From Olivibacter sitiensis DSM 17696 (GTDB lineage: Bacteria; Bacteroidota; Bacteroidia; Sphingobacteriales; Sphingobacteriaceae), in contig NZ_ATZA01000013.1 of NCBI RefSeq assembly GCF_000427965.1, forward strand, positions 1 through 64,000: a stretch of 64,000 bases of DNA, in the 5' to 3' direction. Below the pieces are notes generated by a model. The model was not told where the DNA came from, searched no databases, and was given only the letters and a program-made list of their open reading frames with translations. Shown here in pieces: positions 26,317 through 32,683 of this stretch. Position numbers and translations under genes: made by a program. How positions within the stretch are numbered: position 1 is the stretch's first letter; each line of letters begins with the position of its first letter.

Positions 26317-27099
26317 ATGATGTGTTCTATTGATCTAAACTGTGATTTAGGAGAATCTTTTGGTCATTATCAGCTTGGCGATGATGCGGCGATGATGGAT
26401 TATGTGTCTTCCGTGAATATCGCTTGCGGATTTCATGCTGGCGATGCTTCGGTGATGCGTCGAACCGTTGCCCTGGCCGTAGAAAAACAGGTAGCCATAG
26501 GCGTACATCCCGGTTTGCCTGATTTGCAAGGCTTCGGGCGGCGGGCCATGCAGATTTCGACCAACGAAGCCTACGAGATTTGCCTTTACCAGATAGGAGC
26601 ATTGTACGCCTTTGTCAAGGCAGCGGGCGCAAGTATCCACCACCTGAAACCGCACGGCGCGCTGTACCATATGGCGGCTGTAGATTTAGAAATTGCTTTG
26701 GCCATAGGGCAGGCAATGGTTGATTTTGATGGGGATATGATGCTGTATGGTTTGCCCGGCAGTAAAATGGAGGAGGGTTCCAAGCAATTGGGTTTGCGCT
26801 TTGTGGGTGAGGCTTTTGCCGATAGGCGGTACGAAGCAGACGGAATGTTGGTGTCACGTGCCAAGCCCAATGCACTTATCGATGACACGGATGAGGCTTT
26901 GCGGCAGGTATTAATGTTGGCCAAGGAAAAAAAGGTATTGAGCGTAGAAAATTGTTCCATTTCATTGCGCGCACAGACCATTTGCCTACATGGCGATGGA
27001 AAACGCGCGCTTGACTTTGCAAAGGCTGTCCATGCCCGACTGTGGGCCGAGGGGATAACGATAGAAGCAATCAGCAAAAGCCAAAGAAACCAACCATGA
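26317..27099 (+). CDS. pxpA: 5-oxoprolinase subunit PxpA (LamB/YcsF family)
   Basis: A protein of about 260 residues starting MMCSIDLNCDLGESFG, the unmistakable YcsF/LamB start. It continues with VNIACGFHAGDASVMRRTVALA, IGVHPGLPDLQGFGRR, HHLKPHGALYHMA and CLHGDG, which carry the Asp/His residues of the metal-dependent barrel. A TTG at 26302 is in frame upstream, but the ATG at 26317 gives the usual family start. With PxpB and PxpC it hydrolyses 5-oxoproline using ATP. Its stop overlaps the next gene's ATG by 4 bp (ATGA), so it is coupled to the transporter. Confidence 0.93.
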   Translation: MMCSIDLNCDLGESFGHYQLGDDAAMMDYVSSVNIACGFHAGDASVMRRTVALAVEKQVAIGVHPGLPDLQGFGRRAMQISTNEAYEICLYQIGALYAFVKAAGASIHHLKPHGALYHMAAVDLEIALAIGQAMVDFDGDMMLYGLPGSKMEEGSKQLGLRFVGEAFADRRYEADGMLVSRAKPNALIDDTDEALRQVLMLAKEKKVLSVENCSISLRAQTICLHGDGKRALDFAKAVHARLWAEGITIEAISKSQRNQP

Positions 27100-28271
27100 G
27101 CACTTCAACGAGAAATAAGTTCCTTGCCGCCGCCTTTATGATGGCGACTTCCGCGGTTGGTCCGGGGTTTTTGACGCAAACGGCATTCTTCACCGAAAAG
27201 CTTTTGGCTAGTTTTGGCTTTGTCATCTTGGTGACCGTCGTCTTGGATATCATAGCCCAGCTGAACATTTGGAGGGTCATTGTCGTGTCCGAGAAGAGGG
27301 CACAAGACATTGCCAATGAGCTGTTGCCTGGTATGGGCTTTCTCTTGGCTGGACTAGTGGTATTGGGTGGCTTTGCGTTCAACATTGGTAATATTGCCGG
27401 GGCGGGATTGGGGATGAATATACTATTTGGAATGGATGTGTCGCATGGTGCTTTTTGGAGTGCCTTAATGGCCATCGGTATCTTCATCGTTCGCGAAGCT
27501 GCTAGGGTGATGGATGGCGTGATGAAGGTCTTGGGCATATTGATGATCTTATTGACGGTATTTGTAGCGTGGCAATCCAATCCACCCTTGGCTCAAGCTG
27601 CCAAGGAGACCGTAATGCCTCTGCGTTTTGACTTTACGGCTATCCTGACGCTCGTGGGCGGCAGCGTTGGGGGTTATATTACTTTTGCCGGAGCGCACAG
27701 GCTATTGGACACTGGGATAAAGGGCAGGGACCAAGTGAAGAATGCCAGTACAGCTGCGGTGACCGGTATTGTGCTGGCGTCCATCATGCGCACGGTATTG
27801 TTCTTGGCCGTGTTGGGGGTGGTCTCAGTTGGTATTGCCTTGGACAGCGACAATCCGGCCGCATCGGTCTTTCGGATAGTATCGGGCGAGGTAGGGTACA
27901 AGCTCTTTGGCTTGGTCTTGTGGAGTGCCGCTATCACTTCGGTCATCGGTGCAGCTTATACCTCTGTTTCATTCGTGAAAAGTTTTCATCCGGTTTTGCA
28001 GCACTATGAACGTTACCTGATCATTGCATTTATTGTCATCTCCACCAGTGTTTTCCTTATCGTGGGAAAACCGGTGCAGGTTCTTGTATTGGCTGGAGCC
28101 CTGAATGGACTGATACTGCCCATTGCCTTGCTGCTGATGCTGTTGGCCGTACATCGTCAGCGTATCGTGGGAAAAGAGTATAAGCATCCGTGGAGGCTCA
28201 GCATCGCTGGCTTCGTGGTGGTCTTGCTCATGGGGTACATCAGTGTGGTTTCATTGATAGCGTATTTTTAA
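27096..28271 (+). CDS. NRAMP-like divalent-metal/solute transporter (YcsG-like)
   Basis: A 391-residue inner-membrane protein with 11 or so hydrophobic segments. The start AAAFMMATSAVGPGFLTQTAFF matches the NRAMP TM1 DPGN-type region, although the Asp-Pro-Gly-Asn motif is changed to VGPGF, so metal transport is not assured. Its position next to pxpA follows the Bacillus ycsF-ycsG order, where this relative may carry a 5-oxoproline-linked solute. The ATG at 27096 overlaps the pxpA stop. The last 46 bp of the gene are duplicated at 29432-29477, behind the RAYT island. Confidence 0.82.
   Translation: MSTSTRNKFLAAAFMMATSAVGPGFLTQTAFFTEKLLASFGFVILVTVVLDIIAQLNIWRVIVVSEKRAQDIANELLPGMGFLLAGLVVLGGFAFNIGNIAGAGLGMNILFGMDVSHGAFWSALMAIGIFIVREAARVMDGVMKVLGILMILLTVFVAWQSNPPLAQAAKETVMPLRFDFTAILTLVGGSVGGYITFAGAHRLLDTGIKGRDQVKNASTAAVTGIVLASIMRTVLFLAVLGVVSVGIALDSDNPAASVFRIVSGEVGYKLFGLVLWSAAITSVIGAAYTSVSFVKSFHPVLQHYERYLIIAFIVISTSVFLIVGKPVQVLVLAGALNGLILPIALLLMLLAVHRQRIVGKEYKHPWRLSIAGFVVVLLMGYISVVSLIAYF
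28224..28269 (+). repeat. 46-bp direct repeat, copy 1 (end of the NRAMP gene)
   Basis: Matches 29432-29477 at 44 of 46 positions, in the same orientation. It encodes the C-terminal LLMGYISVVSLIAYF and the start of the stop codon. The two copies bracket the RAYT gene and its hairpins. Confidence 0.9.
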
Positions 28272-28275
28272 AACG

Positions 28276-28380
28276 CTATCCTTAGTCTCTTGCGTTCGCG
28301 GCCTTGCTATAGACTAAGGATAGATAGAAAAAGTACTATCCGTAGTCTGTCGGGTGGGAAATGTGATAGAGACTACGGAT
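28276..28380. repeat. REP-like hairpins on the left of the RAYT gene
   Basis: Two inverted repeats. Type A pairs CTATCCTTAGTCT (28276-28288) with AGACTAAGGATAG (28311-28323). Type B pairs ATCCGTAGTCT (28338-28348) with AGACTACGGAT (28370-28380). They are separated by ATAGAAAAAGTACT, also seen on the right side of the gene. Together they are a partial version of the 148-bp unit found there. Confidence 0.88.
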
Positions 28381-28428
28381 TGTGGAATGGTAAGGTATAA
28401 GGGATTTAGTTTTTTAATGTTTTGATAA

Positions 28429-28986
28429 ATGTCTGATGATGGTTATAAAATAAGAAATCAATTTGCTGTGCATTTCATTACGTTTGCAGTTGTCGAATGG
28501 GTGGATGTCTTTACAAGGAAATTGTATGTCGATATTTTGGTTGAAAATTTAAAATATTGCCAAAAAAAGAAAGGGCTGAATATTCATGCTTGGTGCATTA
28601 TGCCTAATCACGTTCATTTGATAGCATCTTCTAAAGCCCCATTTCGATTGTCCGATATTTTGCGTGATTTTAAGAAGTTCACAGCGAATAAAATTATTGA
28701 AGCAATACAGATGAATACGAATGAAAGTAGGCGTAATTGGATGCTTTGGATTTTTGAGAGTAATGGCAAAAGGAACAATCGAAATGAACATTATCAATTT
28801 TGGCAACAAGGCAATCATCCGATAGAATGCCATGATATGGAAATCTTGGGGACACGTATGAAATATCTGCATCAAAATCCGGTTAGGGCAGGAATAGTCA
28901 GGTCAGAAGAAGATTACCTTTATTCAAGTGCAATTGATTATTATACCGATGAAAAAGGGTTGATTGCGATTGATTTTTTGAAGTAA
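28429..28986 (+). CDS. REP-associated tyrosine transposase (RAYT, Y1/HUH family)
   Basis: A 185-residue single-strand nuclease of the Y1 transposase superfamily. The HUH motif is MPNHVHLI (His61 and His63) and the nucleophile is Tyr146 in RMKYLHQNPVRAGIV. The fold's IHAWCIM-start is present. RAYTs cut and move REP hairpins in cis. Here the gene is bounded directly by such hairpins on both sides, so it is almost surely their mobilising enzyme. It has no signal peptide and its own promoter is unclear. Its stop codon (28984-28986) overlaps the spot where the first 148-bp unit starts at 28987. Confidence 0.9.
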   Translation: MSDDGYKIRNQFAVHFITFAVVEWVDVFTRKLYVDILVENLKYCQKKKGLNIHAWCIMPNHVHLIASSKAPFRLSDILRDFKKFTANKIIEAIQMNTNESRRNWMLWIFESNGKRNNRNEHYQFWQQGNHPIECHDMEILGTRMKYLHQNPVRAGIVRSEEDYLYSSAIDYYTDEKGLIAIDFLK

Positions 28987-29430
28987 AGTACTATCCGTAG
29001 TCTGTCGGGTGGGAGACGTGTTGGGGACTACGGATTGTGGGATGATAGGGTAGTCTGGAGACTACCATTTTCATAGTTTAACCCTTAGTCTCTTGCGCTC
29101 ATGGCCCAGCTACAGACTAAGGATAGTTAAAAAAAGTACTATCTGTAGTCTGTCGGGTAGGAGAGGTGTTGGGGACTACGGATTGTGGGATGATAGGGTA
29201 GTCTGGAGACTACCATTTTCATAGTTTAACCCTTAGTCTCTGGCGCTCGTGGCCTTGCTACAGACTAAGGATAGATAGAAAAAGTACTATCCGTAGTCTT
29301 TCGGGAGGGAGAGGTGTTGGGGACTACGGATTGGATGAATGATAAGGTAGTCTGGAGACTACCATTTTCATAAGTTTAACCCTTAGTCTCTAGCACACAT
29401 GGCTCGGCTACAGACTAAGGATAGAGAAGG
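28987..29430. repeat. Three tandem 148-bp REP units (BIME-like array)
   Basis: Repeats begin at 28987, 29135 and 29283 with AGTACTATC and have a constant 148-bp period. Each contains three hairpins: B (ATCCGTAGTC...GACTACGGAT), C (GGTAGTCT GG AGACTACC, for example 29049-29066) and A (CCTTAGTCT...AGACTAAGG). The hairpin stems are better conserved than the loops. The second copy has one substitution in the B stem (ATCTG for ATCCG). No gene is seen in 28987-29564. Confidence 0.9.
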
Positions 29431-29431
29431 G

Positions 29432-29477
29432 TTGCTCATGGGGTACATCAGTGTGGTTTCGTTGATAGCATATTTTT
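29432..29477 (+). repeat. 46-bp direct repeat, copy 2 (duplicate of the NRAMP gene end)
   Basis: Matches 28224-28269 with 2 differences and is in the same reading direction, ending TATTTTTGA in place of TATTTTTAA. It encodes the same C-terminal residues but no complete gene. It follows the last REP unit directly. Confidence 0.9.
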
Positions 29478-29564
29478 GAATGGAAACTGTTGTTAAGGCG
29501 CAGCTTGTCAGTTATTTCAAAAATATCTTTATCATTGTAAAAGCATTTCCATAAATTTGTATTT

Positions 29565-29774
29565 ATGGAAACAATATTGATTCATCCAAATAATAAGGAG
29601 CAATTAGCTGCCGTGAAAGCTTTTGCTAGGGCTTTGAAAATGAGTTTTGAAGTGAAGTCGGTGAAAGATGATATGTTTATGGATGAACTTCGCAAAGCTG
29701 TGGAAGAAGTAAAGTTGATAAAGCAAGGGAAGCTAAAAGGCAAACCAGTAGAGGACTTGCTCAATGAGTTATAG
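29565..29774 (+). CDS. Small antitoxin of a type II toxin-antitoxin pair (DUF2683-like)
   Basis: A 69-residue charged protein starting METILIHPNNKEQLAAVKAFARAL, with a C-terminal helical tail rich in Lys and Glu. This start is found in Bacteroidota antitoxins paired with RelE/ParE toxins. Its stop overlaps the toxin start by 11 bp, the usual arrangement. It most likely binds the toxin and represses the shared promoter. The exact family name is from recall, while the pairing is seen directly. Confidence 0.75.
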   Translation: METILIHPNNKEQLAAVKAFARALKMSFEVKSVKDDMFMDELRKAVEEVKLIKQGKLKGKPVEDLLNEL

Positions 29775-30093
29775 CGTTATCACTATAAAATCGTTCGATC
29801 GCCAGGTCAAACGTTTAATAAAGAAATACCCCTCCCTAAAAGCTGAGCTTGTTAATTTGGTGCTTCTATTGAAAGAAAATGCGGAATACGGTGTTTCGTT
29901 AGGCAACAATTGTTTCAAGATTAGGATAGCGATAACCAGTAAAGGAAAGGGTAAGAGCGGGGGAGCAAGAATCATTACTAACTTTTATGTACAAGAATCG
30001 ACGGTCATATTATTGACCATTTATGATAAATCTGAACAGGGTAATATTTCAGAGAAGCAAATTTTGGATTTGCTATCACAGATCCCATTTTAA
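29764..30093 (+). CDS. RelE/ParE-type toxin
   Basis: A 109-residue protein with the ParE/RelE start SYSVITIKSFDRQVKRLIKKYPSLKAEL and the core GNNCFKIRIAITSKGKGKSGGARIITNF, then VILLTIYDKSEQGNIS. It would be an mRNA interferase or a gyrase poison; this cannot be decided by eye. It overlaps the antitoxin gene and is co-transcribed. The M1 peptidase gene starts only 23 bp later and may be read through from the same promoter. It sits next to the repeat island, a common place for such mobile pairs. Confidence 0.82.
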   Translation: MSYSVITIKSFDRQVKRLIKKYPSLKAELVNLVLLLKENAEYGVSLGNNCFKIRIAITSKGKGKSGGARIITNFYVQESTVILLTIYDKSEQGNISEKQILDLLSQIPF

Positions 30094-30115: not shown

Positions 30116-32683
30116 ATGACAAGATATTTTTGCTTCACCAGTATTTGTGTTTTGTTGATGATGTCTTGTAAAAATGGTTCGGAGAAGAAACATCTGTTGG
30201 GGGTAGGTATCTCCAAAGAATTGGCTACTTATCGCAAAGAGCAGATCTCGGATATCACCTATGCGCTCTCTTTCGATATTCCCGAAAGCAGAGAGCAGGC
30301 TATACCTGCCCATCTGAAGCTCGACCTGCAGATACACTCATTGAGCCAACCTCTGTATCTGGATTTCAATGAGCAGCAAGACCATCTTCTGAAACTGTCC
30401 GTCAATGGGCGAGAGGAGGATATCGTACACGAAAAAGAGCACCTGATTATTTCGCCCGATGGGTTGAAGCTTGGCGCAAATACCATTGAAATCGATTTTT
30501 TGGCAGGAGAGCTATCGCTAAATAGAAATGAGGATTTTCTGTATACCTTGCTGGTGCCCGATAGAGCCAGCACGCTTTTCCCCTGTTTTGACCAGCCCGA
30601 TTTAAAAGCAAACTATCAACTGACAATCACTGCTCCAAAGGATTGGGAAGTGCTTTGCGCAAGCAAAGAGGAAAGCCGTGTGGATAAAGGGGATTACGTA
30701 ACGCATCGGTTTGGCAAAACCGACAAGATGAGCACTTACCTGTTTTCTTTTGTGGCAGGTAAATTTTCGGTGGCCAAGGAAACCTTAGGGAAGTTGGATA
30801 TGCGTTTTCTATATCGGGAGGACAATGCCGAAAAGGTACAGGCCAGTTTGGCCCCCATTTTTGATCTGCACAAGCAATCGGTCGATTTTCTGGAAAATTA
30901 TACGGCCTATCCTTTCCCTTTTCAAAAGCTGGATTTTGCGGCTATTCCCATTTTTCAGTATGGAGGGATGGAACATGTGGGGGCTATTCAATACCGCGAA
31001 TCGGCCTTGTTCTTGGATCACACGGCAACCGAAAGCCAGAAACTATCGCGGGCCAAACTGATTGCCCATGAAACGGCGCACATGTGGTTCGGCGATCTGG
31101 TGACGATGGAATGGTTCAACGATGTATGGATGAAGGAAGTCTTTGCCAACTTTATGGCCGATAAGATTATCAATCCTGCATTTCCCGATATCAATCACGA
31201 CTTGCTGTTCGTTTTGAATCACTATCCCGCTGCCTATGGCGAAGATCGCACCAAGGGTACGAACCCCATCAGGCAACAACTGGCTAATTTAAAAGATGCA
31301 GGATCCCTATATGGTGGCATTATCTACGATAAAGCGCCCATCATGATGCGTCAATTGGAATTGGCCATTGGAAAGGACAAGTTCAGGGAAGGAATAAGCG
31401 AGTATATCAAAACTTACGCCTATGGCAATGCCACTTGGCCCGATCTGATTGACATCTTGGATACCAAGACCGAACGGGACATGAAAAAATGGAGCGACGT
31501 TTGGGTCAACCAAAGTGGGCGTCCCGTTTTTGAAGAACACATTGCTTACGATGCTGATAACAAAGTGTCCAAGTTCGAGATAGAACAATCAGCAGAAGAC
31601 GGCGGTGATCATTTGTGGCCACAAACGTTTGACGTGGCATTTGTCTACCCAGATTCCATTCATCTGCTGACTGTGAACATAGATGGAAAGGTGGCCAGTC
31701 TGCCAGAGGCCAAAGGCTTACTCAAACCGAATGCCATCATATGTAACTATGATGGCCTTGGATATGGCGTTTTTCCGATGGATAAAGAAGAACTGATCGC
31801 TATATTGAATATCAAGGACGATGTAGCCAGGGGCTACGCCTATATCAATGGCTATGAGAAAATGTTGAATGGAGAGATTGCTCCTTTAGCCATATTCAAC
31901 TTACTGAAAGAAGGAATAAAGGTAGAAAAGAATGAGCTGATCATGCGGTTGGTAAGCAACGAGATAGATAACGTCTTTTGGACTTTTCTGACCGATGAAC
32001 AGCGAATCAAAGAAGAGCGATCGTTAGAGGAAGAGCTTTATGCAAAACTGCAGTCTACGCTGCCTCCGAATATCAAGAAAGCAATCTTCAACCTGTACAA
32101 GGGTATTGCTTATTCGAGTCAAGGGAGGGAAAGGCTGTATCAGATTTGGAATAAGAACACGCAAATACCCAACCTCAAGCTCAATGAGGACGACTATACG
32201 GCCATGGCGATGGATTTGGCCATTTACGAGCATCCTAAAACCAATGACATACTGAAAACGGCACAGCAAGCCATTAGCAATGCGGACAAGCAGAAACGCT
32301 TTGCCTTTCTGTTGCCATCCTTGTCGTCAGATCCTAATGAAAGAAGTGCTTTCTTTCAGTCCTTTAAACAAGCCAAGAACAGGGAAAAAGAAGATTGGGT
32401 ATTGACCGCTTTGAACAATATCCATCATCCCCTGAGGCAAAAGGATGCCATCAAGGATTTGGCGCTTTCGCTGGAATTGTTGCAGGAAATACAGCAAACA
32501 GGAGATATCTTTTTCCCAAAGCGATGGCTGAGCAGCTCCATAGGGCAGTATCGTTCAAAGGAAGCCTGCCAGATTTTGCAGGATTTCTTGTCATCACACC
32601 CTGATTATAATCCTATACTGATGAAGAAGATTCTTCAGGCTACGGACAATCTAAGCAGGGTACAGGCTATGGCGAGCAATTGA
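30116..32683 (+). CDS. M1-family zinc aminopeptidase lipoprotein
   Basis: An 855-residue exported protein. The ATG at 30116 gives the signal MTRYFCFTSICVLLMMSC (lipobox Cys18). The frame is open further upstream, but that part lies inside the toxin gene. The M1 fold shows an N-terminal beta-domain, the exopeptidase motif GGMEHVGAIQY (a variant of GAMEN), and the zinc site HETAH (318-322) with Glu341 after an 18-residue gap. A helical C-terminal domain follows. It trims amino acids from peptides in the periplasm or at the surface. It is not obviously part of the adjacent mannan PUL. Confidence 0.92.
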   Translation: MTRYFCFTSICVLLMMSCKNGSEKKHLLGVGISKELATYRKEQISDITYALSFDIPESREQAIPAHLKLDLQIHSLSQPLYLDFNEQQDHLLKLSVNGREEDIVHEKEHLIISPDGLKLGANTIEIDFLAGELSLNRNEDFLYTLLVPDRASTLFPCFDQPDLKANYQLTITAPKDWEVLCASKEESRVDKGDYVTHRFGKTDKMSTYLFSFVAGKFSVAKETLGKLDMRFLYREDNAEKVQASLAPIFDLHKQSVDFLENYTAYPFPFQKLDFAAIPIFQYGGMEHVGAIQYRESALFLDHTATESQKLSRAKLIAHETAHMWFGDLVTMEWFNDVWMKEVFANFMADKIINPAFPDINHDLLFVLNHYPAAYGEDRTKGTNPIRQQLANLKDAGSLYGGIIYDKAPIMMRQLELAIGKDKFREGISEYIKTYAYGNATWPDLIDILDTKTERDMKKWSDVWVNQSGRPVFEEHIAYDADNKVSKFEIEQSAEDGGDHLWPQTFDVAFVYPDSIHLLTVNIDGKVASLPEAKGLLKPNAIICNYDGLGYGVFPMDKEELIAILNIKDDVARGYAYINGYEKMLNGEIAPLAIFNLLKEGIKVEKNELIMRLVSNEIDNVFWTFLTDEQRIKEERSLEEELYAKLQSTLPPNIKKAIFNLYKGIAYSSQGRERLYQIWNKNTQIPNLKLNEDDYTAMAMDLAIYEHPKTNDILKTAQQAISNADKQKRFAFLLPSLSSDPNERSAFFQSFKQAKNREKEDWVLTALNNIHHPLRQKDAIKDLALSLELLQEIQQTGDIFFPKRWLSSSIGQYRSKEACQILQDFLSSHPDYNPILMKKILQATDNLSRVQAMASN

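Follow-up and report, generated by a model that had tools for sequence, protein, structure and literature searches.

Insertion with a long target duplication has been described for restriction-modification genes of Helicobacter pylori (Nobusato et al., 2000, as described in PMC1643837 and PMC3031569). As far as these two later accounts convey it, that system has in common with the loci reported here an accessory gene within long direct host repeats, duplications of variable length and relatives with an empty site. It differs, within the same accounts, in that REP-RAYT islands (and toxin-antitoxin modules) are the cargo in our Sphingobacteriaceae loci, that the first copy keeps the gene intact while the other is a truncated end, and that the codon positions of the differences indicate divergence of the copies before they were joined. 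Homology-facilitated illegitimate recombination with orphan displacement is known from the T6SS immunity arrays of Vibrio cholerae (PMC5361080), and duplications of the lacZ end in Escherichia coli arise by single crossover, which yields gene-end duplications of 109-950 bp (PMC3240628). Our loci would share with both cases one homologous and one illegitimate side, an old 3' part moved downstream and the building of arrays by repeated events (here prfC and purN), but what has been displaced here is a gene tail without function and not a selected immunity gene, and the mechanism is read from sequence only.

REP-associated tyrosine transposases (RAYTs) are described as single-copy and vertically inherited, with non-transposing loci; REPtrons are said to be passed on mainly vertically and not to move as whole units, and RAYTs of subclass 2.6 occur mainly in Bacteroidetes (PMC6006769). 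The class of structure analysed here, insertion with long target duplication, is already known (PMC1643837, PMC3031569), as is the mechanism that we propose for it (PMC5361080, PMC3240628), and the association of the layout with RAYT islands appears to be undescribed in the literature searched. Displaced gene ends would be scars showing how and when RAYT loci entered a genome. Because such scars allow each event to be dated and polarised, ordinary genome comparison can directly test how RAYT and toxin-antitoxin modules have spread in Bacteroidota.

The NRAMP locus of Olivibacter sitiensis

The window, that is the whole stretch of DNA analysed, comprises 64,000 nucleotides of Olivibacter sitiensis DSM 17696, and those of its features that are named below lie on the forward strand. 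An Nramp-family transporter gene (27096..28271, in ORF 27042-28271; Pfam PF01566, E 2e-20) is intact, and its true 3' end, E1 (28224..28272), is the duplicated segment. The second copy, E2 (29432..29480), is a displaced gene end of 16 codons, truncated at its 5' side and starting 7 nt past the last REP hairpin. E1 and E2 form a direct repeat (D5) with 46/49 identical positions, in the same direction and at a spacing of 1208 bp. The first-pass annotation had reported a duplicated gene end of 46 bp, and over that span (28224-28269 vs 29432-29477) 44/46 positions agree in the same orientation. The repeat is not a chance match, since BLAST gives the 46-mer an E value of 3e-16 and its second-best match anywhere in the window reaches 26/46. 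All three differences between the copies (TCA/TCG, GCG/GCA and TAA/TGA) are synonymous in the NRAMP frame; three random changes would all be silent with a probability of 0.01, or of 0.04 if they are transitions.

Directly 3' of the NRAMP stop lies the left REP module with two hairpins (28272..28397; repeat families D1/D3, inverted repeats I2/I12 and fold), followed by the RAYT gene (28429..28986; 185 aa), whose product carries the HUH/Y1 motifs NHVH, WQ and YLHQNP and matches NCBIfam NF047646 with 101 bits (cut-off 80) as well as PF01797. The right REP array (28985..29424) consists of about three units of 148-150 nt with three hairpins each, as supported by repeat families D2-D4, genome copies and fold. 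The copies were also said to bracket the RAYT gene with all its hairpins, and this is borne out: one intact RAYT is the only coding gene between E1 and E2, and 4/4 copies of the 52-nt hairpin fall there. The RAYT is single copy in the genome (one full match, the next 23% identical), and related solo hairpin units occur at seven other genome places besides the island. As a Bacteroidetes RAYT with motifs close to those of subclass 2.6, atypical flanking hairpins and relatives of these elsewhere in the genome, it agrees with the REPtron description (PMC6006769). Unlike that description, the loci considered here suggest that lineages exchange them by recombination, and unlike IS200/IS605 transposition, which makes no larger target duplication (PMC2817692), the window shows one of 46 bp.

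A toxin-antitoxin module (29565-30093) stands directly after E2. It comprises a DUF2683 putative antitoxin adjoining E2 (29565..29774; PF10884, E 3e-11) and a RelE-like putative toxin (29764..30093; PF06296, E 4e-7), and an M1 peptidase gene follows (30116..32683; PF01433). The gene order pxpB-pxpC-pxpA-NRAMP is kept in several relatives, and synteny shows that in one of them, G030, the M1 peptidase gene lies directly after the NRAMP stop, free of island, toxin-antitoxin module and extra gene end. Because the module is absent from that locus, it is probably a second insertion at the window locus. With an NRAMP only 57% identical to that of the window, G030 represents the ancestral order and not the immediate empty site. 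Neither a donor nor a close empty site for the window was found in the five species of the genus searched, where the nearest NRAMP orthologues are 56-61% identical, and a search of genome contigs for related loci with the NRAMP protein returned no relative. An island-free junction that had the extra gene end would, by the first-pass annotation, have been a sign of independent tandem duplication; G030, the sole relative sharing the junction, has no such end, at that modest NRAMP identity.

Recurrence at RAYT and toxin-antitoxin loci

Every non-RAYT gene end at 126 further RAYT loci of the family was tested for a truncated downstream copy. Six of these loci are clearly flanked by an intact gene on one side and by a truncated copy of that gene's end on the other: L112 (purL), L197 (Mur ligase), L088 (AraC-type), L084 (M48 peptidase), L152 (prfC, assigned from its sequence) and L180 (an unnamed gene). 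Two more show this weakly, L101 over 27 bp and L076 over 12 coding bases, and at L114 a displaced prfC end adjoins a RAYT that is outside the two copies. Duplication lengths range from tens of bp to 353 bp. The search for further bounded islands proposed with the first-pass annotation thus yielded six clear cases, one of them with an empty-site relative. The layout was found at 0/666 control gene ends, taken from forty random 20-kb stretches of the same genomes and from the solo-REP sites of this genome; counting L101, the comparison of 7/126 with 0/666 gives a Fisher p of 2e-6, with loci as the unit on one side and gene ends on the other. No clear case appeared among 28 RAYT loci of other families, which have short flanks.

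Several candidates were set aside. The only similar control match, L267, is a whole-gene tandem paralogue, and paralogous genes likewise form the repeats at L077. The repeats at L061, L134, L160, L168, L169 and L191 are REP copies or spurious ORFs, and those at L078, L107 and L109 are tandem RAYT duplicates. A 'GGG' stands at the border of the REP, ahead of the displaced end, in the window, L180, L112 and L084; no defined cleavage site is claimed from it because L152 is cut within the REP and L088 does not fit.

The same layout is present at 2/29 RelE-type toxin-antitoxin loci, a rate not distinguishable from that of RAYT loci; in the second of them, it is a neighbouring PIN-domain module that the copies enclose. 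At L306:1117-3027 (G030:C76), three copies of the purN 3' end enclose two toxin-antitoxin modules: one is DUF2683/RelE-like, and the other, named by eye, is DUF1778/GNAT-like. At L302:68-1009 (G006:C45), a PIN-domain module is flanked by the 5' end of a gene that looks like tadA and by a second, 77% identical copy of this 5' end. Since toxin-antitoxin loci show the same layout, the RAYT is not its cause.

Origin of the layout

The purL end provides one clear empty site: the sister species G340 has a single 353-bp copy, and G258 (L112) has two copies plus the island. The two copies in G258 are separated by two substitutions, at both of which the displaced copy has the base of G340. At L197 (G322), comparison with L292 of the relative G474 gives an identity of about 81% over more than 2 kb to the left of the island and of 96% on its right, and this jump places a recombination boundary between species at the island. 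G474 has no RAYT at this counterpart. Inspected by eye, G474 itself has an end of the other flanking gene in displaced position, together with a REP. The duplication at L197 itself comprises the ends of both convergent genes and the intervening REP.

A decaying fragment is expected to change at all codon positions, so an excess of third-position differences means that the copies were, for the most part, still functional genes while they diverged. Counted at positions 1/2/3, the differences are 4/3/20 at L114, 1/2/10 at L088, 3/2/9 at L152, 1/0/4 at L084 and 1/2/13 at the prfC locus of G030. In the window they are 0/1/2, the second-position change being TAA/TGA, and L180 (8/2/7) is an exception without third-position bias. 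Pooled, they amount to 18/12/65 (10/9/56 leaving out the window and L180), which gives P = 3e-12 vs equal positions and P = 9e-6 vs our own estimate of 46% for one constrained and one free copy. This pattern suggests that, for most of the older cases, the differences built up while each copy belonged to a functional gene of its own lineage, before the two came to be joined.

We hypothesize, with a probability of about 0.58, that homology-anchored illegitimate recombination, or an equivalent single crossover of a circularised fragment, led to the capture of the island. The donor would have been DNA of a related strain carrying an NRAMP 3' end followed by REP-RAYT-REP. On one side this DNA would have recombined homologously with the resident NRAMP gene, and on the other the outer edge of the REP array would have been joined non-homologously 48 bp before the end of that gene. 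NRAMP would thereby have stayed intact, ending in E1, and the old resident end, E2, would have been pushed downstream of the island. The window is assigned to this route mainly by analogy and through its three silent differences. A ComEC homologue is present, which is weakly informative for such a capture. Counting against capture are L180 with its unbiased differences, the few coding differences between the L306 copies and the duplication of both convergent ends at L197, which fits a true target duplication better; the near-identical copies of L112 and L197 discriminate poorly between the models.

An unlikely alternative, though the strongest of those considered, is a duplication within the lineage, in which the REP hairpins caused replication slippage or a template switch that copied the gene end and the island in tandem and the second island was later lost. 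Hairpins are slippage-prone, several displaced ends begin at or near a REP hairpin, and the copies at L112, L197 and L306 are nearly identical; however, two steps are required, the differences in most of the older copies are concentrated at third positions, which is not how a fragment decays, and the divergence jump at the L197 island speaks against it as well. E1 and E2 could instead be attL and attR in the remnant of a site-specific integrative element with the gene end as attachment site; elements of this kind restore the 3' end of the gene and may leave silent changes. Such a remnant is improbable: the RAYT is the only coding gene between the copies, and the start points vary between loci, even among the prfC cases of one genus.

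The genome of O. sitiensis AW-6T is an Illumina draft (PMC4149018), and near-identical 148-bp repeat units lie close by, but an assembly artefact is hardly credible given that E1 and E2 differ at 3 bases on a single 106-kb contig and that the layout returns in other assemblies, one with an empty-site comparison. A true target duplication, with a RAYT-driven insertion at widely spaced cuts copying the gene end, is doubtful. The six further RAYT loci, the two gene ends with REP duplicated at L197 and the empty site of G340 are in its favour. Enzymes of the IS200/IS605 type, however, make no larger target duplications (PMC2817692), the lengths vary widely, RAYT-free toxin-antitoxin modules have the same layout and the copies in most older cases diverged before joining. 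From the suggestion in the first-pass annotation of an unusual insertion or recombination mechanism, what stands is that an insertion or recombination event is recorded; on these same grounds, it is not a target duplication specific to RAYTs, and a novel type of transposition is the less likely reading.

Returning to capture by recombination, we regard it as rather doubtful that RAYT/REP islands act in their own horizontal capture, the RAYT cutting the outer REP edge, that end being joined inside the resident gene and the flanking gene giving the homology. If true, a domesticated, 'vertically inherited' transposase would spread between species by riding on gene-end recombination.

Displaced prfC and purN ends in one genus

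Displaced prfC ends are present in 3/3 species of genus g3. Those of G030 and G069 are nearest to the gene of their own species (92-94%), which suggests independent events, each with a close donor; G006 does not discriminate in this respect. The purN ends of L306 read as an array that arose through repeated displacement. In G030 (L289:3549-3638, G030:C84), a degenerate RAYT remnant and a REP separate prfC from its displaced end, and this genome gives no full RAYT match at E 1e-15. The motif GTAAAA[AG][AC]AGTAT (or GATAAAA...) was counted 18 times in the roughly 29 kb of L289, L290, L114, L306 and L302, all of this genus, and once in 800 kb of other genera. It sits at the 3' limit of the displaced ends of prfC and purN, and two of its copies at L306 face each other, like the terminal inverted repeats of a small element.
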